DNA of 64,000 nucleotides from Deltaproteobacteria bacterium (GCA_025363655.1 JANYDK010000016.1:1-64000); one strand, 5' to 3'. Positions 13,802 to 31,158 are shown, counted from the stretch's first letter. Notes: generated by a model not told the origin, from the sequence alone. A program made the numbers and translations.

Positions 13802-16078
13802 ATGATGACCACGAACGCGACTTCTTCGATCTCCCCTGCTCCCGCGCACCTCAGCCAAGGGGGACGCCTCGTCTCGGCCGAGGGACAGACGCTCCCGCTC
13901 CTCGGCACGTCGATCGGGCTCGACGCCTTCGGCGGCATCGCCCGCGTCACGCTCGAACAACGTTTTCGCAACGTGCACGCCGAGCCCCTCGCGGTCACCT
14001 ACAGCTTGCCGCTCCCTGCCGACGGCGCCGTCAGCGGCTTCTCGTTCCGCATCGGCGCCGTTCGCACGGTCGGAGCGATCGACAAGCGCGCGAGCGCCCG
14101 CGAACGCTACGAAGCGGCGCTGATCGACGGCCGGAGCGCGGCGATCCTCGAGCAAGATCGCTCGAGCCTCTTCACGCAAGAAATCGGCAACATCCCGCCC
14201 GGTGAAGAGGTGATCGTCGAGGTGATGGTCGATCAGCGCCTTCGTTGGCTCGACGAGGGCGCGTGGGAGTGGCGCTTTCCCACCGTCGTCGCGCCCCGAT
14301 TTCTCGGCGAAGATGGGCGCGTGGCCGACGCCGCGCGGGTCACGCACGACGTCGCCGAGGGCGAGCTCGACGCGCGCTTCACCATCGGCTGCGCGATCCG
14401 CGACGGCCTCGCGCAAGATCGGTCGCCGGAGTCACCTTCGCACGCCTTGAAGACCAAGCTCGGCGAGGGGGCGACGCGTGTCGAGCTGCACGAAAAGGCC
14501 GGAGCGCGCCTCGATCGTGACGTGGTTGTGCGCTGGATGGTGGCGACGCCGAAGATCGGGCTCACGCTCGATACCGGACGCGCGTCCGACGATCGTGGCG
14601 TCCGCGCGGCGGGCAAGCACACGCATGGTCTGCTCACGGTGGTTCCTCCGGCGCCAAAGGCCGAGCGTCGCGCCGGCGTCGTTCCGCGCGATCTGATCGT
14701 GCTCCTCGACACCAGCGGCTCGATGTCCGGCGAGCCCATCGACCAGGCCGTGCGCGTGACGACCGCGCTCGTCGATACCCTCCGCGATCACGATCGACTG
14801 GAGCTCATCACCTTCGGCGACGCGCCGGAACGCTGGAAAAAAGAGGCGATCATCGCTTCGGCAGCGGCGCGCAAAGAGGCGGTCGCTTGGCTTCGCAGCC
14901 GTCGTGCGTCGGGAGGAACCGAGATGCGCGCCGGCATCATGGAGGCGCTCACCGGGCTTCGTGACGACGCGCAACGCCAAGTGGTGCTCATCACCGACGG
15001 CCTCATCGGCTTCGAGTCGCAGGTCGTGGCGGCGATCTGCGATCGGCTGCCGAAGGGTTCGCGCGTGCACACCGTCGGCGTCGGCTCTGCCGTCAATCGC
15101 TCGCTCACCGGACCGGCAGCGCGCGCGGGGCATGGGCTCGAGGTCATCGTCGGCATCGGCGAAGATCCGGAACGCGCTGCTTCGCGTCTGGTCGCGCGCA
15201 CGGCCGAGCCGATCGTCGTCGACCTGGTCGTCGAGGGCTCGGCGCTCGTCGAGCATGCGCCGGCGAAGCTGCCCGATCTCTTCGCGGGGGCTCCGGCGCT
15301 GATCGCGCTCGCGCTTCGCCCCGAGGGCGGCGATCTGTGCGTGCGGGGTCGAACGCGTGAAGGGACGTGGGAACGTCGGATGAAGGTGCCGGCGCGCGCC
15401 GCAGGAGAAGGAAACGCCGCGGTCGTCGCCCTCTTCGGTCGAGAAGCAGTGGAAGACCTCGAGACGCGACTCGCGGCGGGCAGCGACAAGCGCGAGATCG
15501 ATGCGACGATCGAACGCATCGGGCTCGAGCATCGAATCGCGACGCGGCTGACGTCGTGGATCGCGGTGACCGAAGAGCGCACGGTCGATCCGGACGACGC
15601 GCTCCGCCGCGAGCGCATGCCGCACGAGCTGCCGTACGGCATGTCTGCCGAGGGACTCGGGCTGCGCAGGCCGACGACGACGGCGCCGATGCACGCCGCG
15701 CCGATGACAGAGCTCGGCCTCCTCTCGCTCGGTGCGCCGGCCGGAATGCCGATGCCTGCTCCGATGGCGATGCCTGCTCCGATGGCGATGCGGCCCGCGT
15801 CACCGATGCGCGCGCACTCGGAACGCGCGAAGAGTGCGGCATACGCCGGGCCCCCGCCGCCAGCGCAGGGAGCAGCGCCGCCGGCACCCGCGACCTACTC
15901 GGCACCGTCGAACATCGCGAAACCGATGAGCGCTCCTTTGCCGCAGGCGCCGTCCGAGATGCGAGAGCAAGCGCTGCTCCCGCGGAAGAACCTCCGCTCG
16001 CGGATCCTCGGCTTCTTGGTGCTCTTGCTCCTCGCCCTCGCGCTGGTCGCGCTGATCGTGTTCCTCCTCCGACGCTGA
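13802..16078 (+). CDS. VIT and VWA domain membrane protein
   Basis: 758 residues, start supported by GGAGGG ten bases upstream. Residues about 20-150 form a vault protein inter-alpha-trypsin domain (GGIARVTLEQRFRN, DKRASARERYEAAL, SLFTQEIGNIPPGEEV). Residues about 295-470 are a von Willebrand A domain with intact MIDAS (DTSGSMSGE) and TDGLIGFE. A Pro/Ala/Met-rich linker with a 15-bp coding repeat (PMPAPMAMPAPMAM) precedes a C-terminal membrane span (ILGFLVLLLLALALVALIVF), so the domains are probably cytoplasmic and tail-anchored. Similar VIT-VWA proteins are common in myxobacteria; function unknown, probably protein-binding scaffold. Leads an operon with an ECF sigma factor. Confidence 0.88.
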   Translation: MMTTNATSSISPAPAHLSQGGRLVSAEGQTLPLLGTSIGLDAFGGIARVTLEQRFRNVHAEPLAVTYSLPLPADGAVSGFSFRIGAVRTVGAIDKRASARERYEAALIDGRSAAILEQDRSSLFTQEIGNIPPGEEVIVEVMVDQRLRWLDEGAWEWRFPTVVAPRFLGEDGRVADAARVTHDVAEGELDARFTIGCAIRDGLAQDRSPESPSHALKTKLGEGATRVELHEKAGARLDRDVVVRWMVATPKIGLTLDTGRASDDRGVRAAGKHTHGLLTVVPPAPKAERRAGVVPRDLIVLLDTSGSMSGEPIDQAVRVTTALVDTLRDHDRLELITFGDAPERWKKEAIIASAAARKEAVAWLRSRRASGGTEMRAGIMEALTGLRDDAQRQVVLITDGLIGFESQVVAAICDRLPKGSRVHTVGVGSAVNRSLTGPAARAGHGLEVIVGIGEDPERAASRLVARTAEPIVVDLVVEGSALVEHAPAKLPDLFAGAPALIALALRPEGGDLCVRGRTREGTWERRMKVPARAAGEGNAAVVALFGREAVEDLETRLAAGSDKREIDATIERIGLEHRIATRLTSWIAVTEERTVDPDDALRRERMPHELPYGMSAEGLGLRRPTTTAPMHAAPMTELGLLSLGAPAGMPMPAPMAMPAPMAMRPASPMRAHSERAKSAAYAGPPPPAQGAAPPAPATYSAPSNIAKPMSAPLPQAPSEMREQALLPRKNLRSRILGFLVLLLLALALVALIVFLLRR

Positions 16079-18015: not shown

Positions 18016-21000
18016 GTGTTTGCGATTCTCTCTTTCTTGCCCGGGGACTCTGCCTTCCGAACGCTGATCGTGGTGCGTGAGCTCGCCGGGGGCGAGGTCG
18101 TGGCGTATCCCGCAGCTGAGCCGCAGTGGGCGAGCTTCGGAGAAGAAGAAGAGGTGCTGCTCGAACAGCGCGTCTTTCTCACCTCGTATCTTTCACGGGT
18201 GCCGCCAGACGTGGTGGCGCGGCATGCGTTGCCGGCGCGGACGCGACTGCACGTTTCGAGCGTGGTGGTGCCGCGCGACGATCTTCCGCGGCGCATCGCG
18301 CTCGAAGAGCCGCTCGACATTCCTTGTCTGGTCTTGCCCGCGAAGCATCCGGAGGAGAACGCGCGGCCGGAGTCGTGGGTGTGCGTGCTGCCTCTCGCGC
18401 ACACGTTTCACCTTGCTGCGGCCGAGAGTCGCGCCCTCGACGAGCGTGACGAGCGCGAACGACTCGACGAGGCGATCGAGCACGAGGTGAAGCGGATGGT
18501 GAGCGCCGAGGAGCGCACGCCGTTGCAGTGGCTCGATCTGGTGCCCGATGGCGAGTCGCGCCTCGTCACCCTCGATCTCTTCCTCGATCGCGGCGAGACA
18601 GGGCCGGCAGGGCGAGCGGCGTCGCTCGCGAAGGCCCTCGCAGAGCGGGAAAAGAAGCGTGCGGCGCTCGCGGTCCTGGAGTCGATCGGGACGCCGCTCC
18701 ACCTCGCGGACGGCTCCCATCCTCGGCCGCTCGTCGGACGTGACGACGAGCTCGAGCTCCTTCGCTCGCTTCTCGGCGGCGAGACCCGCGGCAGCGTGCT
18801 CATCGTCGGCGGCGATCGCGTCGGCAAGACCGCCCTCTTCCAAGCGTGGGTCCACCGCGAGCGCGCGGCCGAGAAGGCGCGACCGATCTTCGCCACCTCG
18901 GGCGCGCAGCTGATCGCCGGCATGAGCGGTCTCGGCCAATGGCAAGAGCGCGTGCGGCGCGTGATGCAAGCGGCCGCCGAGCTCGACGCGGTGCTCTACT
19001 TCGACGACCTCGGCGACCTCTTCGCCGACCGGCCGACGGGCAACGTCGATTTGGCGGGCGCGATGAAGCCATGGCTCGACGACGCGAAAGTGCGAGTGGT
19101 CGGAGAGCTGCGCGAGTCGCGGGTCGATCTCGCCGAGTCGCGACACGTCGGGTTTTTCTCGCTCCTCGCGCGCCTGCGCGTGCCACCGATGAAGACCCGC
19201 GAGGCCGAGGCGGTGCTCCGCGCGCTGATCGCCCACGACGGCCAGCACGCGCCGCACAAGCCGCAGCTCGATCCGATCGCGGCGGTGCCGATGATCGATC
19301 TCGCCGAGCGCTATCTCCCCTACGAGCAATTTCCCGGCAAGGCGGTGCGGCTCTACGACGAGCTGCGCGGCGCACACGAGATGTCGTCGGCGCGCCGAGG
19401 TGACCCTGACGAGGCAGCACCGAAGCTGGGGCTCACCGAGCTCTACGAAGGCTTCAGCTTGCGTAGCGGCGTGCCGGTCTTTCTCCTTCGCGAAGATCGC
19501 GTGCTCCTCCAGGTCGAGGTCGAGGCGCAGCTTCGCGCACGGGTGGTCGGCCAGGAAGACGCCGTGCGCCGCGTCGCCGAGACGGTCTGCATGGTGAAAG
19601 CCGGGCTCCAGCCGCCGGGGAAACCGCTCTCGACGTTCCTCTTCGTCGGACCCACCGGCATCGGAAAGACCGAGCTGGCGCGTGCGCTCGCCGAGCTCCT
19701 CTTCGGCTCCGAGGCGCGGCTGGTGCGCTTCGACATGAGCGAATTCATGGATCCGCTCGCCGCCGATCGCCTGATCCGCGGCAACGAACGCGGCGAAGGA
19801 CTGCTCACCCGGCGCGTGCGCGAACAGCCATTTTGCGTGATTTTGCTCGATGAAATCGAGAAGGCGCACGCGGCCGTCTTCGACTTGCTCCTCCAAGTCG
19901 CCGGCGAAGGACGTCTGACCGACGCGCGTGGGCGCACGGCGCACTTCCAGAACGCGATCCTCATCCTCACGAGCAACCTCGGCGCGACGCACGGGCGCAG
20001 CGAGATGGGCTTCGCGCGCGAGGGAAAAGCGAGCGACGAGACGCAATACCTCCGCGTCGTCCACGAGACGTTCCGCCCCGAGATGGTCAACCGTCTCGAT
20101 CGCATCGTCGTCTTCCGCAGCCTCCAGCGCTCCGAGCTCGCACGCATAACAACGCTATCTATCGCCAAGATCTGCACGCGACGTGGGCTCGCAGCGGCCA
20201 GCGGCGATCTCGAGGTGAGCGAGGCGGCGAGCACTCGACTCGCCGACGACGGGTTCTCCGCGGCCTATGGTGCGCGCTCGCTGCGCAGGCACCTCGAGGT
20301 GCACCTCGTCGATCGGATGGCGTCGCTCATCTCCGGGTTCGGCGGCATCGACGGACATCGCGTCGCGGTCACCGCCGAGGGCGAGCCCGAGCCGATCGGC
20401 CAAGTGGCGAGCGAACTCGAAGACGGCGTTCGCATCTCGATGATTCGCGCGGAGAAGCGCGCCATCACCCGGGCCAGCCGCGGCATGGGCGCGATCTCCT
20501 CGATTCGTCGGGAAATGCAGCGCCTCTTGCGTCTGCCGCCGATCGAGCAGCTGCGCGATCAGGTCGAGTATCTGATCACCGAGCTCAACTACGGCAGCGG
20601 CAACAAGCGGGCGAAGAAGCTCTCCGGCGCGGCGCTCTCGCTCTCGCAGGCCGAGCACCATCGGCTCTCGACCATCCACGCCGCCCTCGATCTCGGCTTC
20701 CGCGACGTCTGCACGCTCGAAGAGCTGGCGCTCGCCGGCTACTTCGAAGGGCACCCTCTCGACGAGCTGAGCGACGAGGCGCACCGCACGCGAGGAAGCT
20801 TCCGCACCGCGATGGCGAGGGCGCTCGTCGCGCAGGAGACGCGGCGAGACTCGATCGCGCTGCTCCTCCAAGAGCTCGACGACGGGCGAGCGTTCAACTT
20901 CTATCTCGCACCGCTCCTCGCCGACGCCGCGCGAAGGCGCTTCATCACCACGGTGCACTTCGAGGCCGAGGGCGGCACCGGTCCCTACGGTCGTTTCGCC

Positions 21001-21591
21001 GCGGCGATGAGCGGCGAGGACGCGCTCGTGCACCTGCAGACGTCGAAGGCACGATGCGCGGTGGTCTTCGTGCAGGGCGAGATGTGTGCGCCGTTCCTCG
21101 CGCTCGAAGGCGGCATCCATCGGTTCGACGGGCTCCACGCCGAGTACCCAGAGGTCATCCTCTCGGTGCAGAGGCTGGCCTTTCGTCCGTCGCTCTCCAC
21201 CGCCGAATGGCGCGGAAAAAAGGTGGTTCCGGCGCTCCCCAACGTCGTCGCCGAGCTGCGTCGTGTGACGCCGACTCGGCACTTCGACGCACGCGAAGGC
21301 CGACTGACGTTGCTGAAGAAGGTGCGTATGGCGATGACGCACGAGGAGTACTTCCCGCGCCTCGAAGAGATCGCGCTCGAGCACCTCCTCCTCTTCGAGA
21401 AAGACGAAGACCTCGAGCGCGAAGACTCCTTCACCGTCGTCCTCGACGGCCTCGACGACATCTACGAGATCGCCAAAACCAACAAAATCATGGCGATCAA
21501 GGAGTACCGCGAGCGCTTCGGCGTCGGCCTCAAGGAGGCGAAGGACGCCGTCGAGCTCTTGGTCAAACGCCGCACGGACGAGGGCGCATGA
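18016..21591 (+). CDS. ClpB-like double AAA+ protein with release-factor-like region and L7/L12-like C-terminus
   Basis: 1191 residues (GTG start; no clear ribosome site). Residues 1-230: a beta-rich N-domain unrelated to the Clp N-repeat but recognisable in the next two proteins. AAA+ 1: Walker A GGDRVGKT near 266, pore region AGMSGLGQW near 301, Walker B VLYFDDLGD (Glu replaced by Asp). AAA+ 2: GPTGIGKT near 545, FDMSEF, Walker B VILLDEIEKA, TSNLG, arginine finger PEMVNRLDR and sensor 2 GARSLRR; the GYVG pore loop is missing (RLIRGNERGEG). Residues about 950-1110 resemble a PCRF domain (AEGGTGPYGRF, MSGEDALVHLQ, ALEGGIHRF). The last 43 residues match L7/L12 CTD (IMAIKEYRERFGVGLKEAKDAVELL). 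Overlaps the next gene by ATGA. Inferred role: ribosome-linked remodelling. Confidence 0.82.
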   Translation: MFAILSFLPGDSAFRTLIVVRELAGGEVVAYPAAEPQWASFGEEEEVLLEQRVFLTSYLSRVPPDVVARHALPARTRLHVSSVVVPRDDLPRRIALEEPLDIPCLVLPAKHPEENARPESWVCVLPLAHTFHLAAAESRALDERDERERLDEAIEHEVKRMVSAEERTPLQWLDLVPDGESRLVTLDLFLDRGETGPAGRAASLAKALAEREKKRAALAVLESIGTPLHLADGSHPRPLVGRDDELELLRSLLGGETRGSVLIVGGDRVGKTALFQAWVHRERAAEKARPIFATSGAQLIAGMSGLGQWQERVRRVMQAAAELDAVLYFDDLGDLFADRPTGNVDLAGAMKPWLDDAKVRVVGELRESRVDLAESRHVGFFSLLARLRVPPMKTREAEAVLRALIAHDGQHAPHKPQLDPIAAVPMIDLAERYLPYEQFPGKAVRLYDELRGAHEMSSARRGDPDEAAPKLGLTELYEGFSLRSGVPVFLLREDRVLLQVEVEAQLRARVVGQEDAVRRVAETVCMVKAGLQPPGKPLSTFLFVGPTGIGKTELARALAELLFGSEARLVRFDMSEFMDPLAADRLIRGNERGEGLLTRRVREQPFCVILLDEIEKAHAAVFDLLLQVAGEGRLTDARGRTAHFQNAILILTSNLGATHGRSEMGFAREGKASDETQYLRVVHETFRPEMVNRLDRIVVFRSLQRSELARITTLSIAKICTRRGLAAASGDLEVSEAASTRLADDGFSAAYGARSLRRHLEVHLVDRMASLISGFGGIDGHRVAVTAEGEPEPIGQVASELEDGVRISMIRAEKRAITRASRGMGAISSIRREMQRLLRLPPIEQLRDQVEYLITELNYGSGNKRAKKLSGAALSLSQAEHHRLSTIHAALDLGFRDVCTLEELALAGYFEGHPLDELSDEAHRTRGSFRTAMARALVAQETRRDSIALLLQELDDGRAFNFYLAPLLADAARRRFITTVHFEAEGGTGPYGRFAAAMSGEDALVHLQTSKARCAVVFVQGEMCAPFLALEGGIHRFDGLHAEYPEVILSVQRLAFRPSLSTAEWRGKKVVPALPNVVAELRRVTPTRHFDAREGRLTLLKKVRMAMTHEEYFPRLEEIALEHLLLFEKDEDLEREDSFTVVLDGLDDIYEIAKTNKIMAIKEYRERFGVGLKEAKDAVELLVKRRTDEGA

Positions 21592-24500
21592 ACGTCACCG
21601 TCCCCGTCTACCAGCGCAGGCGCGGCGCGTTCTTCCACTGGACGACCGTCGGTCTAGGCGAGCACACCGAACGGCGCGTGGGGGTCAACGCGCACAAGGT
21701 CGAGCAGCAGCTGGTGGAGGCGATTCGCACCAAGGTCGAGCGGGTCTCTCCGCGCGAGCTCGTCGCCTTCGCCCTCAAACGCGGGACTCGCCTCGCGCGC
21801 GTGCGAATCGAGCTCACGCTTCGTGGCGAGGGCGGCAGGCGCAAGGTCTCTGGTCTCTGTCCCATCGTCCTCGAGCCGCATTTCATCGGCGAAGGTCGCG
21901 AGCTCGTCATCGGTTATCACCCGGAGCGACCCTTCGAGTGGTTCCCGGTGCGCGGCGACGACGATCTCGCCGAGCAAGCGACCTCGTACCTGCAGAAGGT
22001 CTGGTCGGCGGTATCCGAAGACCTCGTCGAGCTGCTCTTCACCGACGGCAAGGACACGCTCAAGCTCGTCTCCTTCAGCGCGCGACCGAAGTCCCTGCTC
22101 GACGAGCTCCCCGAGAAGCAGAAAGGCGTCTGGGACGATCTGCGCGCCGATCCGCTCCGCGGCGAGAAGCAGAAGTCGCATGGATTCAAGGTGCTCCCGA
22201 CGCTGGCGACCGACCTCACGGCGCGGCTCGCCGGCGATGGAAGCGCGCGCGCAGCGATCGGAATGCCGCGCTCACCCTATCGCGAGCAGCTGCAGATGCT
22301 CCTCGCCGGCAAGCAGAAGCAGCCGGTGATCGTCGTCGGCGCGCACGGCGTGGGGAAGTCGACGGTGCTCGCGCAGTGGGTGGCCGACTTGCTCGTCGCC
22401 GAAGATTTCGACTCGCACAAGAACCTCGACAAGGTGCACCACGTCGTCCAGCTCGGCGGCAAACGAATCATCGCCGGCATGTCGTACGTCGGTGACTGGG
22501 AGAAGCGCTGCGTCGAGCTCGCCGACGATCTGACCGGAAAAAAGCGCATCGCCTGGATCGACGACCTCCACCTCTTCGGACAGATCGGGCGCGCCCGCGA
22601 CAGCGATCGATGCCTCGCCGACTTCTTCCGCGGGCCGCTCGCCCGTGGAGAGATCGTCCTCGTCGGCGAGTGCACCGAAGAACAACTGCGACGTCTGGAA
22701 GAGGACGCGCCCGCGTTCGCCGCGCTCTTCACCCGCGTCTTCGTCGGTCCGACGACGCCCGCCGAGACGATGCGCATCCTCGTGCACGAGGCGCGTGAGT
22801 TGGAGATTGCGCGCGACGTCGAGATCGAACCGTCCGCCTTTCGCACCATTCTCGAGCTCGGTCCCGCGCTGACGCCCGGTCAGGCCCTCCCTGGCCTGGC
22901 GCTCGATCTGCTCCGCGCGCTCGCCCGCGAGTTCGAGGGCAAGCCAGACGAGTCGAACGAGATCGGCGTCGATCAAGTGATCGCGCACCTCTCGTCGCGC
23001 ACCGGTTTACCGTGGATTCTCCTCGCGAACGAGAAGCCGCTCCTCCGCGACGAGCTCCTCGGCGACCTCTCCGGTCGCGTGCTCGGGCAAGACGTGGCGG
23101 TGAACGCCGCCGCCGATCTGGTGATGCGCATCAAGGCCGGGCTCGTCGATCCGAAGCGGCCGTACGGCGTCTATCTCTTCACCGGACCGACCGGCACCGG
23201 CAAGACCGAGCTGGCGAAGACGCTCGCCGAATATCTCTACGGCGGAGCCTCGCGGCTCGTTCGCTTCGACATGAGCGAGTACGGGACGCCCGACGCCGCC
23301 GGTCGATTGATCGGCGACGCGTGGACCCCCGAGGGCGCCCTCACCCGTGCAGCGCAAGAGCAGCCGTTCTGCGTCGTCCTGCTCGACGAGATCGAGAAGG
23401 CGCACCCCTCGGTGCTCAACCTGCTCTTGCAACTGTTCGACGAGGGACGCCTCACCGACGCGCGTGGCGAGACCGCGAGCTTCACCCAAGCCGTCATCGT
23501 CATGACCTCCAACCTCGGCGCCAAGCCGCAAAATCCGCTCGGATTCGGCGCTGGATTCGACGCCGTGATGCAGGACGTGGCACGGGCGGTCCGCGAGTTC
23601 TTCCCGCCCGAGCTCTTCAACCGCATCGATCGCATCGTCCCCTTCCGGCCGCTCGATGCGACGGTGGCGATCGAGGTGGCGCAGAAAGAGCTGAGCAAGC
23701 TCTTGGCACGGCGCGGCCTCGTCGATCGCAACGTCTTCGCGAGCAGCAGTCGTTCGGTCGTCGAGCGCGTCGCGCGCGAAGCGTTCGAGCAACGCGACGG
23801 CGCGCGCTCGCTCAAGCGCTTCCTCGAAGATCGCATCGCCGGAAGGCTCGCCGAAGAGATCTCGGCGAGCCCGGGCGCGTCGATGCAGCTCGTCCGCATC
23901 GAGGACGCGGGAGATGGCGAGCCCTTCGTCATCACGCGTGAGCCGCTCGTCGAGGCGACGCCGCTCACCGAGGCCTCGTTCGCGCTCGAACCGCTCCTCG
24001 AGCTGCCGCTGCCCGAGCTCTTGAACGAACTGGCACGCGCGATCGCGCCGCTCGGTGAGGACGGCACGCTGACGCCGACGTTGAGCCGTATTTCCGAGGA
24101 GATTCGCTTCCACCTCGGCGAGCACAACCGCGGCCTCCGCGATCACGGCGAGCTCCTCTACAACCTCGATCACATGCGGCACTCGCTCGACGCCTTCCGC
24201 GATCGGGCCTCGCGCGTGCTCACCACCTCGCGTGAAGTGCGCGAGGAGGGATATGAAGATCTCGAGCTGGCGCGGTTCGCCTGGGACACGGTCGACATCG
24301 GCACCGGTCCTTCGCACACGCGTTGGCGCTACCGGGTGCTCTCGCGTTCGGCGTTCACCCGTGGGGTCGCCGCCGCGACCCGTCACGAGGCGCTGGCGTG
24401 CATCGCCGAAGCCCATTTTCTCAAGCGATCGCTCTTTCGCGCGCACGATCCGAGTCGTCATGCGGTGGTGCTCGAGCTCGCGCGGCTCGGTGAGGTGCGC

Positions 24501-25142
24501 GGTCAGTCGCGGCTCGTCACCTCCGAAGGCGGCGACAAGGGGCGCGGCGGGTTCCTCTCGCTTCTCGCGAGAGCCTATGCGGCGCGACGAGGTGAGCTCG
24601 ACGACTTCGCGACGGTGCGCGACGGCGTCGCGATCGGCGGAGCCGGGGGCCCACTCGAAGTCTCGGACTCCAACGTCTTCGCGCTCAAGCTCGTCGGCCT
24701 CTGCGTTCGCGACGTCTTCGAGCTCGAAGAGGGGACGCACGTCGTCGAGCCCTTGAGCGGACCGCCCGAGCTGGTGCGGGTTCGCATCGTCGATGGCGCG
24801 CCCCCGCTCGAGGTCGTCTCGACACTGCTCGCAGCTAGGCAAGAGCGCGAACGCGCGCGCGCGATCGCGAGCGAACGCCCCTCGCCCGACGCGCTCACCC
24901 CGATGGTGCGCCGCGTACGCCTCGGTGCTTCGTCCCGTGCAGGAAAACCGGCCCCATTCGGCGTCGAAGACTTTCGCATGAGCTTCGTCGACACCGTCTA
25001 CGCACGCAGCGTCGCCGAAGCGCTCGAACCTCTCTGGCTCCTTCAACTCTCCCGTGTCGACGACGAGAAGGACGCTGAGCGCAGGAAGACCGAAACGACC
25101 GAGAAAACCGAGCAGACCGAGACGAAGGGAGGCGACTCGTGA
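21588..25142 (+). CDS. Second ClpB-like double AAA+ protein with release-factor-like region
   Basis: 1184 residues from the ATG in the ATGA overlap at 21588. N-domain: VTVPVYQRRRGAFFHWTTVGLG onward, about 230 residues. AAA+ 1: GAHGVGKS near 251, pore region AGMSYVGDW with a Tyr, Walker B IAWIDDLHLF (second acidic residue Asp). AAA+ 2: GPTGTGKT near 533, FDMSEYGTPDAAGRLI, Walker B VVLLDEIEKAHPS, PPELFNRIDRIV and GARSLKRFLE. The loop after RLIG lacks GYVG. Residues about 930-1085 again look PCRF-like (LARLGEVRGQSRL, FELEEGTHVVEPL) without a GGQ motif. A Glu/Lys/Thr-rich tail ends in a GTGA overlap with the third gene. Probably assembles with its neighbours. Confidence 0.82.
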   Translation: MNVTVPVYQRRRGAFFHWTTVGLGEHTERRVGVNAHKVEQQLVEAIRTKVERVSPRELVAFALKRGTRLARVRIELTLRGEGGRRKVSGLCPIVLEPHFIGEGRELVIGYHPERPFEWFPVRGDDDLAEQATSYLQKVWSAVSEDLVELLFTDGKDTLKLVSFSARPKSLLDELPEKQKGVWDDLRADPLRGEKQKSHGFKVLPTLATDLTARLAGDGSARAAIGMPRSPYREQLQMLLAGKQKQPVIVVGAHGVGKSTVLAQWVADLLVAEDFDSHKNLDKVHHVVQLGGKRIIAGMSYVGDWEKRCVELADDLTGKKRIAWIDDLHLFGQIGRARDSDRCLADFFRGPLARGEIVLVGECTEEQLRRLEEDAPAFAALFTRVFVGPTTPAETMRILVHEARELEIARDVEIEPSAFRTILELGPALTPGQALPGLALDLLRALAREFEGKPDESNEIGVDQVIAHLSSRTGLPWILLANEKPLLRDELLGDLSGRVLGQDVAVNAAADLVMRIKAGLVDPKRPYGVYLFTGPTGTGKTELAKTLAEYLYGGASRLVRFDMSEYGTPDAAGRLIGDAWTPEGALTRAAQEQPFCVVLLDEIEKAHPSVLNLLLQLFDEGRLTDARGETASFTQAVIVMTSNLGAKPQNPLGFGAGFDAVMQDVARAVREFFPPELFNRIDRIVPFRPLDATVAIEVAQKELSKLLARRGLVDRNVFASSSRSVVERVAREAFEQRDGARSLKRFLEDRIAGRLAEEISASPGASMQLVRIEDAGDGEPFVITREPLVEATPLTEASFALEPLLELPLPELLNELARAIAPLGEDGTLTPTLSRISEEIRFHLGEHNRGLRDHGELLYNLDHMRHSLDAFRDRASRVLTTSREVREEGYEDLELARFAWDTVDIGTGPSHTRWRYRVLSRSAFTRGVAAATRHEALACIAEAHFLKRSLFRAHDPSRHAVVLELARLGEVRGQSRLVTSEGGDKGRGGFLSLLARAYAARRGELDDFATVRDGVAIGGAGGPLEVSDSNVFALKLVGLCVRDVFELEEGTHVVEPLSGPPELVRVRIVDGAPPLEVVSTLLAARQERERARAIASERPSPDALTPMVRRVRLGASSRAGKPAPFGVEDFRMSFVDTVYARSVAEALEPLWLLQLSRVDDEKDAERRKTETTEKTEQTETKGGDS

Positions 25143-27526
25143 GCAAGCCGAGCCTCCGCGTCTATTTCGTCACCCACTCGATCCCGGCCGTTCCTCCGGA
25201 AGAGCGCGCGAGCGACGAGACGTTGGAGAAAGCGACGAACGCGCGCGCGATTGGCGCTGCGGGTGAAGTCGCCGAGGAGACACGGGTCACCGGACGGCTG
25301 ATGCGCGCGTGGGACGAGCTCTTCGACAAGCCGGCCCCGGCGGCCTTCGGCGTCAGCGAATCCGACGTCCTCGAACAGCTCGAGAGACAGCTCGTCGGCC
25401 TCACCGCGACCGGCGAATCCTTGACTCGTTATCTCTGGACCGAAGAATTCCAGACCCGCCGCGTTCGCGTCGACGTGCACCCACTCTCGTCGGTGAAGAA
25501 GCGCCCCGTGATCGGCAAGGAGCTGATCCCCCTGCAGCTCACGTACGCGTGGAGCAAGATGAGCGGCGGCGCCTATCGCGTGATGGTGCCGCGCTTCGGC
25601 GGTTGGTTCATCCTCGAAGATCTCGCCCTCGCGCCCGATGTGCTGCGACACGCGGTGAGCAGTTGGCTCCTCGGGAGCAACCCCCGTTGGGTCTATGATT
25701 TCCGCTGGGAAGGCGAAGAGTGGGTGCGCGAGTGGTCGCCCGCGCTGCTCACGCGCACCGACGTCGCCGAGGAGAAGGAAGACGACGCGAAGAAGCACCC
25801 GGTGCTCGCGCAAATCGGCGAAGAGCTCGTCGAGCTGGCGGCGCGCGGAAAATTGCCCGCCACCGTCGGCGACTCGAGCGAGCTCGTCGCCCTCGAAGAG
25901 CGTCTGCGCAAGCGGCCATTCCCTTCGCTCCTCGTCGTCGGCCCGCCCGGCGTCGGCAAGACGACGTTCGTGCGCCGGCTCGCGCGTCACTTCGCGCAGA
26001 AGCGTAGCGACGCGAAGAAGAAGGGCGGCCTCGCACCGCCGCGCATCTGGTCGACCTCGGGCGAGAAGATCATCGCCGGCATGGTCTACCTCGGCATGTG
26101 GCAAGAGCGCTGCCTCCGCATCGTCGCCGAGCTCGCCGAAGACTCCGACTATCTCTACGTCGACCGGCTGACGTCGATCCTCCGCGCGCAGCCCGACGGT
26201 GGCACCATCGCCGACGCCCTGACGCCCTCGGTGGTCTCCGAAGAGATCTCGCTCATCGCCGAGTGCACCGAGTCCGAGCTCGAATGGGCGAAGAGGCGCG
26301 CGCCGGCGCTCCTTCGGCGCTTCACGATCGTCCGCCTCAGCGAGACGGTGCCGACCGCGACGATCGAGCTCCTCCATCTCCATGCGGCGAAGAAGGGCGC
26401 GGCGATTCACCCCGCCGGCCTCCATCGTCTGGTGCAACACCTCGCCGCCTTCGCGCGCGATTCAGCCTTTCCTGGCAAGGGATTTCGCTTCATCGATTGG
26501 CTGACGAGACAACGCAAAGCCGATCGCGAAGGCGCTCCGCGGCTCTACCCACGCGACGTCTCCGAGGCGTTCGCGCGCTACTCGGGCGTCTCCCTCGATC
26601 TCGTCGCCGACGAGCGCCCCGCCTCGGCAGCTCACTTCGCTACGCGCCTGCGCGACGGCGTCGTCGGACAGGATCACGCATGCTCGGCCTGTGCGCGTGC
26701 GCTCGCTCGCCTCAAGGCCGGCCTCGACGATCCCGAGCGCCCGTGCGGCACGTTCCTCTTCGTCGGCCCCACCGGCGTCGGCAAGACCGAGCTCGCCAAA
26801 CAATTCGCGCGCGTCGCCTTCGGAGAAGATCGTTTGATTCGCTTCGACATGAGCGAATACGGCCTCCGCGGCTCGGGTCAGCGCCTCCTCGACTCTTCCC
26901 CCGGCGTGACCTCACTCGCGCAGCTCGTCCGTCAACAGCCGCTCTCGCTCGTCCTCTTCGACGAGGTCGAAAAGGCCAGCCCCGACGTCTTCGATCTCCT
27001 CCTCTCGGTCCTCGGCGAAGGCCGTCTCACCGACAGCTCGGGCCGCATCGTCGACTTCCGCGGCACCTTCATCGTCATGACGTCCAACCTCGGCGTCAGT
27101 AGTCGTGCGCCCGTCGGCTTCGGCGACGCCCCTGCCCCCGACTTCGCCCGCGCCGTGCGCGCGCACTTCCGACCGGAGCTCTTCAACCGCATCGACGACG
27201 TCCTCTCGTTCCGGGCGCTCACCCGCGAAGACGTCATCGCCATCGTCGACCTCGAGCTCGCGAAGCTCGCGCAACGCACCGGCCTCCTCCGCCGCGGTCT
27301 GCGCCTACGCGTGTCGAGCGAAGCGAAGTCACTGCTGGCGGAGCTTGGCTATCACCCGACGTTCGGCGCGCGGCCGCTGAAGAGGCTGCTCGAAGAGCGG
27401 ATCATGACCCGGCTCGCCGCGGAGATGGCAGCAGACGCGAAATTTCGCGAGCGCGAGGTGAAGGTGGTGGCGGAGGGCGAAGAAGCGGGCAGCGGGTTCG
27501 TGGTGAGAATCACCCGCCCGGAGTGA
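25139..27526 (+). CDS. Third ClpB-like double AAA+ protein
   Basis: 795 residues from the GTG in the GTGA overlap at 25139. N-domain residues 1-230, related to those of the other two. AAA+ 1: GPPGVGKT near 267, pore region AGMVYLGMW, Walker B YLYVDRLTS, where the glutamate is Arg, so hydrolysis by this ring is doubtful. AAA+ 2: GPTGVGKT near 543, FDMSEYGLRGSGQRLL, Walker B LVLFDEVEKASPD, PELFNRIDDVLSF and GARPLKRLLEERI; again no GYVG pore loop. It ends at the ClpB D2 C-terminus with no release-factor-like extension. No ClpP-docking loop (IGF/L) is seen. Its last 17 bases overlap the convergent lipoprotein gene. Confidence 0.85.
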   Translation: MSKPSLRVYFVTHSIPAVPPEERASDETLEKATNARAIGAAGEVAEETRVTGRLMRAWDELFDKPAPAAFGVSESDVLEQLERQLVGLTATGESLTRYLWTEEFQTRRVRVDVHPLSSVKKRPVIGKELIPLQLTYAWSKMSGGAYRVMVPRFGGWFILEDLALAPDVLRHAVSSWLLGSNPRWVYDFRWEGEEWVREWSPALLTRTDVAEEKEDDAKKHPVLAQIGEELVELAARGKLPATVGDSSELVALEERLRKRPFPSLLVVGPPGVGKTTFVRRLARHFAQKRSDAKKKGGLAPPRIWSTSGEKIIAGMVYLGMWQERCLRIVAELAEDSDYLYVDRLTSILRAQPDGGTIADALTPSVVSEEISLIAECTESELEWAKRRAPALLRRFTIVRLSETVPTATIELLHLHAAKKGAAIHPAGLHRLVQHLAAFARDSAFPGKGFRFIDWLTRQRKADREGAPRLYPRDVSEAFARYSGVSLDLVADERPASAAHFATRLRDGVVGQDHACSACARALARLKAGLDDPERPCGTFLFVGPTGVGKTELAKQFARVAFGEDRLIRFDMSEYGLRGSGQRLLDSSPGVTSLAQLVRQQPLSLVLFDEVEKASPDVFDLLLSVLGEGRLTDSSGRIVDFRGTFIVMTSNLGVSSRAPVGFGDAPAPDFARAVRAHFRPELFNRIDDVLSFRALTREDVIAIVDLELAKLAQRTGLLRRGLRLRVSSEAKSLLAELGYHPTFGARPLKRLLEERIMTRLAAEMAADAKFREREVKVVAEGEEAGSGFVVRITRPE

Positions 27527-28197: not shown

Positions 28198-30630
28198 TCA
28201 GCTCCCCGCGAGGTCGAACTGTTCGAGGTGATACTCGCGGTGCGGCACGAGCATCAGCTGACGCTGGTAGCGACGCTCGGCCTCTTTGGTGACGTCGCGC
28301 GCCTCCGATTGGAGGAAGTCGATGACGGAGGGGTGCGCGTTGACCACCACTTTGTAGCCTGGCAACGACTGCTTTTCGCGCCTGATTTGCCGGAGAATCT
28401 CGAAGGCGATGGTCTGCCGTGACTGCAGCTGTCCGGTGCCGTCGCAGTAGAAGCAGGGCTCGTGCAAAGTGCGGCCGAGCGACTCACGCGTGCGCTTGCG
28501 GGTCATCTCGACGAGGCCGAGCTCGCTGATGCGATTGATCGACGTCTTCGCCTTGTCGACGAGGAGCGCCTGCTCGAGCGCGCGATAGACCTTCTCGCGA
28601 TTGCTGTGCCGCTCCATGTCGATGAGATCGAGCACGATCAAACCGCCGATGTTACGGAAGCGTAACTGGTAGGCGATCTCGGTGACGGCTTCGAGGTTGG
28701 TCTGGAGAATCGTGTCTTCGGGATCTTTGTTGCCCTTGCCGACGAAGCGACCGCTGTTGACGTCGATGGCGGTGAGCGCCTCGGCTTGATCGATGATCAG
28801 GTGACCGCCGCTCGGCAGCGGAACTTTGCGCGAGAGCGCGCGGGCGATTTCGTCCTCGAGACCGTAGGCGTCGAAGATCGGCTCGCCGCCGCTGTAGAGC
28901 TCGAGGGCGCCGGCGCGCTCGGGCATGAACATCTCGAGGAAGCGCTGCAGACGCTGGAACTGCTCTTTGTCGTCGATGACGATCTTCTCGACGTCGTCGG
29001 TGAACATGTCGCGCGCGGTGCGCAAGACGACGTCCAGCTCTTGGAAGAGGAGCGACGGCGCCTTCACGCCCACTTCCTTCTTCTTGGCGATTTCGCCCCA
29101 CAAACGCACGAGATAACCGACGTCCGCCTTGAGCTGCTTCTTCGTCAGGCCCTCGGCGACGGTGCGGACGATGAGCCCACCTTGCGGCGGCTTCATCGCT
29201 TCGATGGCCTCGCGCAGACGCTTGCGCTCGAGGTCGGAGCCGATGCGGCGCGAGACGCCTACGTGCTCGACGGTCGGCATGTAGACGACGTAGCGACCGG
29301 GCAGCGAGACGTGGCTGGAGACGCGCGCGCCCTTGGTGCTGATCGGGTCCTTCGTCACCTGGACGACGACCTCCTGACCCTCTTTCACGACCTCGTTGAT
29401 CGGCGTCGAGCGACCGAGGCGGAGACCGCCTTCGCGCGGCTCGCGACGTCCGCCGTCGCGTCCGCCGTCGCGTCCGGCGTCACGTCCGGCGTCACGTCCG
29501 CCTTCACGGTTACCTTCGCGTCCGCCTTCACGTCCGCCGCTGTCGCGTCCGCGATCGCCACCACGACCGCGATCACCGCCGCCGCTCGTACCGCTGCTGC
29601 TGCTGCTGCTGCCGCTGCGCGCGCGATCACCGCCGCGACCGCCGCTGCGTCCGCGACCACCACGTCGTTCGTTGGCCGGAGACGGCTTGATGTCGCGCGC
29701 GAGTCCAATCGAACCGGTCGCGGCCGGCGCCGGTGCGGCTGCTTCATCGCGGGGCTCGCGGGGCTCGCGGGCTTCGCGGGGCGCTCGAGCTTCGCGCGGT
29801 TCGCGGGGCTCACGTGCTTCACGCGGGACCGCCGGCGCGGCCGGAACTTCGACCGACTCGCTGCCCTCGGCGGCGACGGCAGGCGGGAACGAGGACGAGG
29901 TCCCCTCCGCGGCGGCGGGCGCGGCACCTTCGGCCGGGGCTTCGCCTTCCTCTGCTTTGACGTCGGTCTCGATCTCGTCGCGCTTGGCGCCGCTGCGCCC
30001 GCCACGACGACGACGACCACGACGCGCGGCCATGTCGGCGGTGTCGGTTCGCTTGCGCACGACGACGTCACCATCGGCGAGCTCGCGCGTCTCACGGAGC
30101 ACCGGCGCGTCGGGCTCTTCGAGAATGACCCCGGGGTCGATCGGCCTATGGGAGCTGGCCTCGGCGAGCGCGTCACCGATGGGATCTCCGTCGTCGCCCT
30201 CGACTTCGTCACCGTCGTCGTCGCCCTCGACCGCGTCGTCGACCTCGTCGCCCTCGATGGGCAGCGATGCGGCGCTCGTCGCGGCTGCAATTTCGCCCTC
30301 GGGCGCGTCGACGTCGATTTCGATCTCTTCGTCGGCCGCCTTCGCGCGCTGCCGTGGCTCGCGCTGCTTGCTGCCGGCGAGGTAGGCCTCGAAGTCGGCG
30401 GGGCGGATCAGATCTTCGACGTGGAGGAACGCCGCGCGCTCCTCGCCGATGTCGATGAAGGCCGCCTGCATGCCGGGAAGCACGCGCGAGACCTTGCCGA
30501 GATAGATGTTGCCGACGAGCCCCTTCTGCCCGCGTCGCTCGACGTGGAGCTCGCTGAGGATGCCGTTCTCGATGAGCGCGACACGTGTCTCGCCGATGTC
30601 GCAGTTGATGACCAGAGTGTTCTTCGCCAC
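28198..30630 (-). CDS. Ribonuclease E/G family endoribonuclease with large low-complexity insertion in the S1 domain
   Basis: 810 residues, GTG start at 30630. RNase E/G cuts single-stranded RNA in mRNA decay and rRNA maturation. The start LVINCDIGETRVALIENG and the S1 strand NIYLGKVSRVLPGMQAAFID are typical. The S1 domain is then split by about 320 residues of acidic, Pro/Arg and Gly/Arg/Asp repeats before EVVVQVTKDPISTKGARVSS resumes it. The catalytic part follows (DLIDMERHSNREKVYRALE, DVNSGRF) and the zinc-link motif CFYCDGTGQ. The RG-rich insert probably binds RNA or proteins. Downstream of dtd by 27 bp. Confidence 0.95.
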   Translation of the reverse strand: MAKNTLVINCDIGETRVALIENGILSELHVERRGQKGLVGNIYLGKVSRVLPGMQAAFIDIGEERAAFLHVEDLIRPADFEAYLAGSKQREPRQRAKAADEEIEIDVDAPEGEIAAATSAASLPIEGDEVDDAVEGDDDGDEVEGDDGDPIGDALAEASSHRPIDPGVILEEPDAPVLRETRELADGDVVVRKRTDTADMAARRGRRRRGGRSGAKRDEIETDVKAEEGEAPAEGAAPAAAEGTSSSFPPAVAAEGSESVEVPAAPAVPREAREPREPREARAPREAREPREPRDEAAAPAPAATGSIGLARDIKPSPANERRGGRGRSGGRGGDRARSGSSSSSSGTSGGGDRGRGGDRGRDSGGREGGREGNREGGRDAGRDAGRDGGRDGGRREPREGGLRLGRSTPINEVVKEGQEVVVQVTKDPISTKGARVSSHVSLPGRYVVYMPTVEHVGVSRRIGSDLERKRLREAIEAMKPPQGGLIVRTVAEGLTKKQLKADVGYLVRLWGEIAKKKEVGVKAPSLLFQELDVVLRTARDMFTDDVEKIVIDDKEQFQRLQRFLEMFMPERAGALELYSGGEPIFDAYGLEDEIARALSRKVPLPSGGHLIIDQAEALTAIDVNSGRFVGKGNKDPEDTILQTNLEAVTEIAYQLRFRNIGGLIVLDLIDMERHSNREKVYRALEQALLVDKAKTSINRISELGLVEMTRKRTRESLGRTLHEPCFYCDGTGQLQSRQTIAFEILRQIRREKQSLPGYKVVVNAHPSVIDFLQSEARDVTKEAERRYQRQLMLVPHREYHLEQFDLAGS
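29440..29830 (-). repeat. Tandem coding repeats in the RNase E/G insertion
   Basis: Two blocks of imperfect short tandem repeats. Around 29440-29560 a roughly 12-bp unit (CGTCCGCCGTCG-like) encodes (GRDGGRDA)-type repeats. Around 29745-29830 a 9-15-bp unit encodes (EAREPREPR)-type repeats. Such blocks vary in copy number between strains, and their reading frame is kept. Confidence 0.7.
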
Positions 30631-30657: not shown

Positions 30658-31158
30658 TCAGTCTTGGCCTGCGGTCGGGACGAGAGGCGGCGCGCCCGGG
30701 TTGCGCGCGTCCCCTTCCCGCGGCGAGTCGATCAGCAATGTGACCGGCCCGTCGTTGAGGCTCGAAACCTTCATGTCCGCGCGGAACTTGCCGGTCTCGA
30801 CCGACACGCCGCGCGCGCGAACTGCTTCGACGAACGCTTCGTAAAAGCGCTCGGCGGGCTCGGGAGCCATCGCCCCCGAAAAGCTCGGCCGGCGCCCCTT
30901 GCGCACGTCTCCGAGCAGAGTGAACTGACTGATGGCGAGGACCTTGCCGCCGACGTCCTTCACGTCGCGCGACATCTTTCCTTCGTCGTCGGGGAACACA
31001 CGCAGCCCCGCGACCTTCTCGGCCATCCACTCGACGTCCAACGAAGTGTCACCCGCGGCGACGCCGACGTAGACGAGCAGGCCGCGCTCGATGGCGCCGA
31101 TGACCTGCCCTTCGACCTCGACGCACGCGCGTGCGCAACGCTGGACGACCGTCTTCAT
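30658..31158 (-). CDS. dtd: D-aminoacyl-tRNA deacylase
   Basis: 166 residues; the family is about 145, with the difference in a Pro-rich C-terminal tail. Dtd hydrolyses D-aminoacyl-tRNAs and Gly-tRNA-Ala, protecting translation. Diagnostic motifs are VVQRCARACVEV at the start, ISQFTLLGD (SQFTL) and SLNDGPVTLLID (the cross-subunit GP motif, here with Asn-Asp before). The start ATG overlaps the stop of the Cys-rich gene by 4 bp, suggesting coupled translation. Confidence 0.95.
   Translation of the reverse strand: MKTVVQRCARACVEVEGQVIGAIERGLLVYVGVAAGDTSLDVEWMAEKVAGLRVFPDDEGKMSRDVKDVGGKVLAISQFTLLGDVRKGRRPSFSGAMAPEPAERFYEAFVEAVRARGVSVETGKFRADMKVSSLNDGPVTLLIDSPREGDARNPGAPPLVPTAGQD

Follow-up and report, generated by a model that had tools for sequence, protein, structure and literature searches.

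Why should a protein unfoldase of the Clp/Hsp100 kind end in what looks like parts of the translation apparatus? This question is raised by a 64,000-nucleotide stretch of DNA from a deltaproteobacterium (GCA_025363655.1, JANYDK010000016.1:1-64000; the whole stretch is referred to as the window), in which three overlapping plus-strand genes, here called A, B and C, all encode Clp/AAA+ proteins. An earlier note, made from the sequence alone, had assigned the end of the A protein to a PCRF-like domain of peptide-chain release factors (RFs) followed by an ending like ribosomal protein L7/L12 (bL12), and had read both as means of docking on ribosomes. That the domain in question is an RF2-type module without GGQ carried by Clp/Hsp100 motors can now be stated with very high confidence. 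Alignments and predicted structures together show that the C-termini of A and B descend from release factor 2, with the predicted fold of RF domains 1, 2 and 4 kept and the GGQ domain as well as the stop-codon tripeptide lost, and, as judged from sequence comparison, that C is a partner motor without RF module.

A release factor fold behind the AAA+ modules

The profile of A residues 795-1191 and their orthologs aligned collinearly over RF domains 1 and 2 with an RF1/RF2 profile of relatives (score 40.8, probability 67). E-values of such pairwise hhalign comparisons are not calibrated to any database and were used only next to shuffle controls, in which 100 block shuffles did not exceed 29.9 and the reversed profile scored 13.7; no block shuffle matched the score observed for A or B against RFs. 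The AlphaFold model of A 795-1191, calculated from an alignment holding 12 relatives and no release factor, has a pLDDT of 86.6, and each of its first 45 Foldseek matches in the PDB is an RF1 or RF2, the best one at an E of 3.9e-6 and a probability of 1.00. With VIA-align, a Z of 14.2 over 270 residues was obtained to RF2 and of 13.5 to RF1 (1rq0; root mean square deviation, rmsd, of 4.6 over 227 residues), domain 2/4 alone aligning at an rmsd of 3.3 over 153 residues. With complete RFs in their ribosome-bound form, the rmsd is as large as about 8, which is probably due to a different domain arrangement in the model. Likewise, the model of B residues 760-1165 (pLDDT 80.1) has RF1/RF2 as its first 46 Foldseek matches in the PDB.

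The RF-like part of A begins near residue 813 and fills nearly everything after the second AAA+ module. The region 950-1110 to which the earlier note had confined it is indeed RF-like, but the module is larger and includes a helical part resembling RF domain 1. All strings quoted in its favor are present in frame (AEGGTGPYGRF at residues 984-994, MSGEDALVHLQ at 998-1008 and ALEGGIHRF at 1029-1037, the last encoded at 21100-21126), and with the profile score lying above the shuffles and the top Foldseek matches all being RFs, the right domain had been named, but its alignment was partly wrong. GTGPYGRF had been taken as the counterpart of GDGVYGRL in RFs, a register that does not hold: in the ortholog alignment, this spot reads WPxxRRWGPPR, a conserved insert absent from RFs. 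A nearby segment, kept as GxxAGxLLALEAGLHR in A orthologs, corresponds to GxxxYGxLKFExGVHR of RF1/RF2, so that GEMCAPFLALEGGIHRF is the real counterpart in A. The reported absence of the GGQ motif is borne out, as none occurs after residue 700 of A and none in A or B of the window, the few GGQ strings elsewhere sitting at other positions. Moreover, the stop-codon tripeptide SPF (or PxT) after GVHR is absent from the A and B alignments. The window's genome encodes two separate normal release factors, RF1 and RF2.

RF2-like intermediates in Chloroflexota and Myxococcota

Searching an alignment of the N-terminal part and the first AAA+ module (D1) of A against 84,980 species genomes resulted in 58 loci. 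The labels are mostly Myxococcota or Deltaproteobacteria for 39 of them (L090-L128), and mostly Chloroflexota, with one Actinomycetota, for the other 19 (L129-L147). Most of the latter group encode single ClpA-like proteins of about 1000-1190 amino acids (aa) ending in an obvious RF2. These Chloroflexi fusions carry PxFW of domain 1, WxxxLAxMYLxWAERKGY and GxNVFGFLKGERGxHK/R, and end in RF2's own C-terminus (VIRxYxL...RDxRTxVR...GxLDxFILAYL). The PCRF model PF03462 is over its cut-off in all seven scanned fusions of the Chloroflexi/Actinomycetota type (best E 2e-18) and also in L055, which belongs to Myxococcota of the window's own order (E 4.2e-12), and phmmer finds RF2 as best PDB matches of the Chloroflexi-type fusions. 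Against the RF profile, the Chloroflexi module reaches a probability of 99.4 (E 2e-21) in an alignment extending to the RF C-terminus, and profile links connect it with A (probability 96.7) and B (97.3). In the block-shuffle control against the Chloroflexi profile (hhalign), a few scores near 135 arose (three of 100 for A, two of 100 for B and four of 200 in a second A run). The four high scores of the second run are short matches of 11-58 columns near the gapped template end and are an aligner artefact; the remaining A shuffles of these 200 scored at most 31, versus 80.8 over 250 columns observed for A.

In a maximum-likelihood tree calculated from 275 shared columns, the 13 fusions included form one clade (support 99) which is sister to RF2 (support 100 for RF2 plus fusions). 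Only about 40 residues separate the PCRF part from the RF2 C-terminus in the Chloroflexi proteins, hence the GGQ domain is missing there as well, and in each of the 13 fusions other residues stand in place of SPF. RF2 signature residues, on the other hand, are invariant in the Chloroflexi modules, indicating that more than the bare fold is maintained. Each of the eight genomes checked holds two normal-length, high-scoring RF genes, and in the six of them that have single fusions, the fusion comes third among the RF matches, with a weaker score; it is therefore not the cell's RF2. Compared with RF2 (prfB), the module shares the fold of domains 1, 2 and 4, the sequence signature in the Chloroflexi relatives and a sister position in the tree, but it has neither GGQ domain nor SPF and is fused to a double AAA+ motor in cells keeping a separate normal RF2. 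As these two defining features of RF2 were looked for and are lacking, the fusion is not a release factor.

The resemblance to RFs might be fortuitous, arising from short motifs in a C-terminal extension of other origin, and three results could speak for this: direct Pfam scanning finds PF03462 in neither A nor B, even at E 10; comparison of the A profile with all PDB sequences is weak (E 0.03); and a middling structural Z arises by chance for helical bundles. However, the seven best matches of this weak comparison are all release factors, and unrelated helical proteins rank under the RFs and align only to A model residues up to about 148, whereas RF matches also span the alpha/beta domain. 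Considering also the failure of shuffles to attain the observed scores, chance is a highly improbable explanation, which for the RF module is already refuted by PF03462 in the intermediates, the Foldseek matches of A and B, the profile links and the tree.

More Clp-like paralogs, some in multi-gene rows, are found in other Polyangiales genomes (L050, L052, L053, and L054), with RF-like C-termini variously eroded; L053 11252-15730, for one, has FW and RDLR motifs. Hence, the family extends beyond the A-B-C operon.

An L12-type hairpin at the end of A

The L7/L12-like ending of A holds for an alpha1-alpha2 hairpin. The string quoted for it, IMAIKEYRERFGVGLKEAKDAVELL, is in frame at residues 1158-1182 (21487-21561), and PF00542 (L12) matches residues 1153-1180 in the protein scan (24.6 bits, E 3.2e-5) and the hairpin in the genome scan (28.6 bits versus a cut-off of 25.9). 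The hairpin aligns gaplessly with E. coli bL12 residues 64-88. A complete bL12 C-terminal domain (CTD) of three strands and three helices, however, is not present, since the match does not go beyond position 36 of the 67-position profile, and A stops 11 residues on; the remaining CTD strands and helix are lacking, as is the bL12 N-terminal domain. Furthermore, just three of the 39 A sequences have this ending (the window, L090, and L091). The structure prediction proposed as a check on the C-terminus of A revealed the RF fold with helices at the L12-like hairpin and no unrelated fold.

The same hairpin lies between D1 and the second AAA+ module (D2) in B of L102, L107, L108, and L111. In the window's genome, PF00542 matches five stretches (four above E 1e-3 and one near the limit), one of which is bL12 itself. 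Due to this rarity, separate hairpin insertions into two genes of one operon are unlikely to be chance. On the level of sequence, the L12 hairpin is real and recurs, with independent gains in A and in B of other myxobacteria. Two other open reading frames (ORFs) with L12-like ends were noticed. A long ORF with a radical-SAM-like middle, about 7 kb beyond the window end (L151 4873-7185), ends in a near-complete L12 CTD (G000:C113:70979-71164; PF00542, 41 bits), and a small one of 191 aa from stop to stop (L152) ends in the L12-like hairpin NSIGAIKLYRELTGVDLKTAKEVVDSLR (G000:C55:63140-63235). The latter suggests that the L12 hairpin is a reusable C-terminal add-on.

The A hairpin keeps the lysines, the isoleucine and the arginine with which bL12 contacts translational GTPases, and the L12 hairpin as such belongs to the element making these contacts. 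This origin would also suit a module acting as decoy for RF2 partners (RF3, PrmC, ArfA-like factors, and translational GTPases), which would be recruited or removed for unfolding without any ribosome binding of its own. RF domain 1 has indeed been described as GTPase-interacting domain (PMC6514570), but no conservation of a neighbor gene for such a partner is seen, and a decoy function is considered quite improbable.

The AAA+ motors of A, B and C

In the Pfam scan, membership of the Clp/Hsp100 group is evident from two AAA+ modules with ClpB_D2-small present. None of the three proteins comes near the cut-offs of the ClpA, ClpB, and ClpV models (for A, ClpB 319.5 versus 1232.1 and ClpA 297.7 versus 993.15). 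The Walker A-to-Walker A spacing amounts to 275-282 residues in A, B, and C, leaving no room for the long M-domain of ClpB, which has a length of roughly 90 aa (PMC10149685). D2 motifs are near-invariant among 39 A, 27 B, and 19 C sequences; the D1 Walker B is without catalytic Glu in all three proteins (DD in A and B, DR in C). Gripping and ATP hydrolysis may thus be split between the two rings of the A/B/C motors, with D2 hydrolyzing ATP and D1, without the Walker B Glu, mainly gripping the substrate. The D2 pore-loop region of A, B, and C has lost the GYVG-type aromatic motif.

After TSNLG, a phi-G-F tripeptide is found at the place of the LGF loop, which is the ClpP-docking marker in ClpC (PMC10149685). 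Conservation of its F reaches 96% in B and 84% in C sequences, but only 34% in A. The motors resemble ClpA/ClpC-type Hsp100 proteins in having two AAA+ modules at ClpA-like spacing, an intact D2 and phi-G-F in the ClpP-docking loop position (B, C, and the Chloroflexi proteins), but differ in the model scores, which for A are far below the ClpA/ClpB/ClpV cut-offs, in the D1 Walker B and in the RF-derived extension of about 400 residues in A and B.

A possible role at the ribosome

The combination described suggests a Clp-type unfoldase machine aimed at the ribosome. The catalytically dead RF2 module would most simply be a targeting device seating the AAA+ ring in or near the A site of ribosomes that have stalled or been damaged or, alternatively, at the ribosomal factor-binding center, and L12-type hairpins might assist docking in some lineages. 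Then, the motor would pull and unfold a nascent chain or ribosomal protein. The three proteins may assemble into a mixed ring, and B and C, via their phi-G-F loops, may hand the substrate to ClpP. Ribosome docking of the RF module has about even odds; as already read by the earlier note, it can reasonably be proposed on the strength of an RF2-derived module together with recurrent L12 hairpins. For the complete mechanism, in which the dead module targets the motor to the ribosome and the motor unfolds a substrate, the chances appear evenly balanced. Several observations weigh against it. SPF and GGQ are both lost, and recognition of the A site is therefore no longer guaranteed; the module follows D2 C-terminally, on the face that would receive ClpP; phi-G-F is poorly kept in A; the modules of A and B have diverged too far for detection by Pfam; and the L12 match comprises a hairpin instead of the full CTD.

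Loss of the codon-reading and catalytic parts would also fit if the RF2 fold had been exapted as a structural or oligomerization domain, either for assembly of an A-B-C ring or as a platform for substrates or adaptors, with ribosome contact abandoned. The strong divergence of A and B (17-35% identity among A family members) is in line with this, and a three-subunit arrangement makes contacts between subunits plausible. However, the RF2 signature residues still invariant in the Chloroflexi modules and the twofold gain of a hairpin that is likewise translation-related in the same operon argue against exaptation, which is regarded as unlikely, though clearly less so than the decoy function.

Returning to targeting of the ribosome, a more specific version can be proposed only tentatively. 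The dead RF2 module would plug the A site of stalled ribosomes, while the joined AAA+ ring would extract the chain and, with ClpP, destroy it, thus representing a one-polypeptide bacterial counterpart of ribosome quality control by Vms1/Cdc48; in myxobacteria, it would later have been divided among the three subunits of an A/B/C ring. In eukaryotes, Vms1/ANKZF1 is a release-factor-type protein working with the AAA+ motor Cdc48 (PMC6514570). This is an analogy only, as Vms1 belongs to the unrelated aeRF-1 superfamily, is a separate protein and acts as peptidyl-tRNA hydrolase. If the module binds ribosomes, a direct mechanical link would exist from ribosome stalling to protein unfolding or degradation, without tmRNA tagging or RqcH tailing. 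The presence of family members in sequenced named bacteria (Sorangium cellulosum, Minicystis rosea, and Herpetosiphon aurantiacus) makes the docking idea directly testable.

Relation to described proteins

Among the open-licence papers searched, none was found to describe a release-factor module fused covalently to an AAA+ unfoldase. ClpI of Actinomycetota is likened here by description, being an additional class of Clp unfoldases that stands between ClpB and ClpC and has members both with LGF loops and lacking them (PMC10149685); a text search of this paper did not find the term release factor. PrfH, a divergent bacterial RF paralog, is among the structural matches of the A model (7sa4, Z 9.2), but it has been described as a peptidyl hydrolase connected with RtcB ligase (PMC6514570), whereas the module described here has no hydrolase domain. 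The survey of release factors in the latter paper centers on the hydrolase domain, and ClpB, ClpA, and PCRF are not mentioned in it according to a text search; fusions without GGQ could therefore have been overlooked. The A, B, and C proteins are filed as a variant of the Clp/Hsp100 kind not previously described in the literature searched.

The operon and its surroundings

The host genome has a size of 9.0 Mb, and its nearest named relatives are Myxococcota. The order A-B-C is seen again in many other myxobacteria, including Minicystis rosea, and Sorangium cellulosum So ce26 likewise has A followed by B. When 188 Myxococcota genomes were sampled evenly, A was found in only 11 (E 1e-60). Positions in the window are compiled in Table 1.

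Table 1. Features of the A-B-C operon and neighboring genes in the window.
Feature	Position	Strand	Remarks
VIT and von Willebrand A domain protein	13802-16078	+	upstream of the A-B-C operon
Gene A	18016-21591	+	1191 aa; double AAA+ (Clp/Hsp100-type); RF2-derived module and L12-like hairpin C-terminal
A, first AAA+ module (D1)	18727-19410	+	Walker A GGDRVGKT; Walker B DD instead of DE
A, D1 pore loop AGMSGLGQWQER	18916-18951	+	within D1
A, second AAA+ module (D2)	19525-20385	+	Walker A/B and Arg finger intact
A, MGF tripeptide	20005-20013	+	in D2, at LGF-loop position
A, helical counterpart of RF domain 1	20452-20838	+	model residues 19-147
A, equivalent of RF domain 2/4 (PCRF-type)	20839-21411	+	model residues 148-338; GGQ domain absent
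A, AEGGTGPYGRF	20965-20997	+	residues 984-994; position of A-family insert, not PCRF strand
A, GEMCAPFLALEGGIHRF	21076-21126	+	residues 1021-1037; counterpart of RF GxxxYGxLKxExGVHR
A, L12-type alpha1-alpha2 hairpin	21472-21558	+	end of A; PF00542 positions 8-36 of 67
Gene B	21585-25142	+	double AAA+; ATG start overlaps A end; RF-derived C-terminal module
B, LGF tripeptide	23538-23549	+	
B, RF-derived C-terminal module	24009-25049	+	model residues 50-396
B, GLCVRDVFELEEGTHV segment	within 24681-24743	+	inside the RF-derived module
Gene C	25139-27526	+	double AAA+; without RF module
C, VGF tripeptide	27113-27124	+	
RNase E/G with long N-terminal part	28198-30630	-	convergent to the A-B-C operon
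D-Tyr-tRNA deacylase	30658-31158	-	convergent to the A-B-C operon

An S26 signal peptidase is also among the neighbors in the window. Neither this gene nor those for the VIT/von Willebrand A domain protein, RNase E/G, and D-Tyr-tRNA deacylase have counterparts at other A-B-C loci, where the other clusters obtained in the neighborhood comparison are mostly shadow ORFs, and the genes around the Chloroflexi fusions are housekeeping genes plus a globin. With no conserved neighbors around the operon or the Chloroflexi fusions, gene neighborhood was dropped as a clue to function. A role in anti-phage defense is likewise unsupported, as the PADLOC matches (DolB, PDC-M37B) span the AAA+ part only. The window's genome has two clear ClpP genes, the second paralog being located downstream of the A-B-C operon, at a distance of about 56 kb on the same contig (G000:C113:83429-83944, minus strand).

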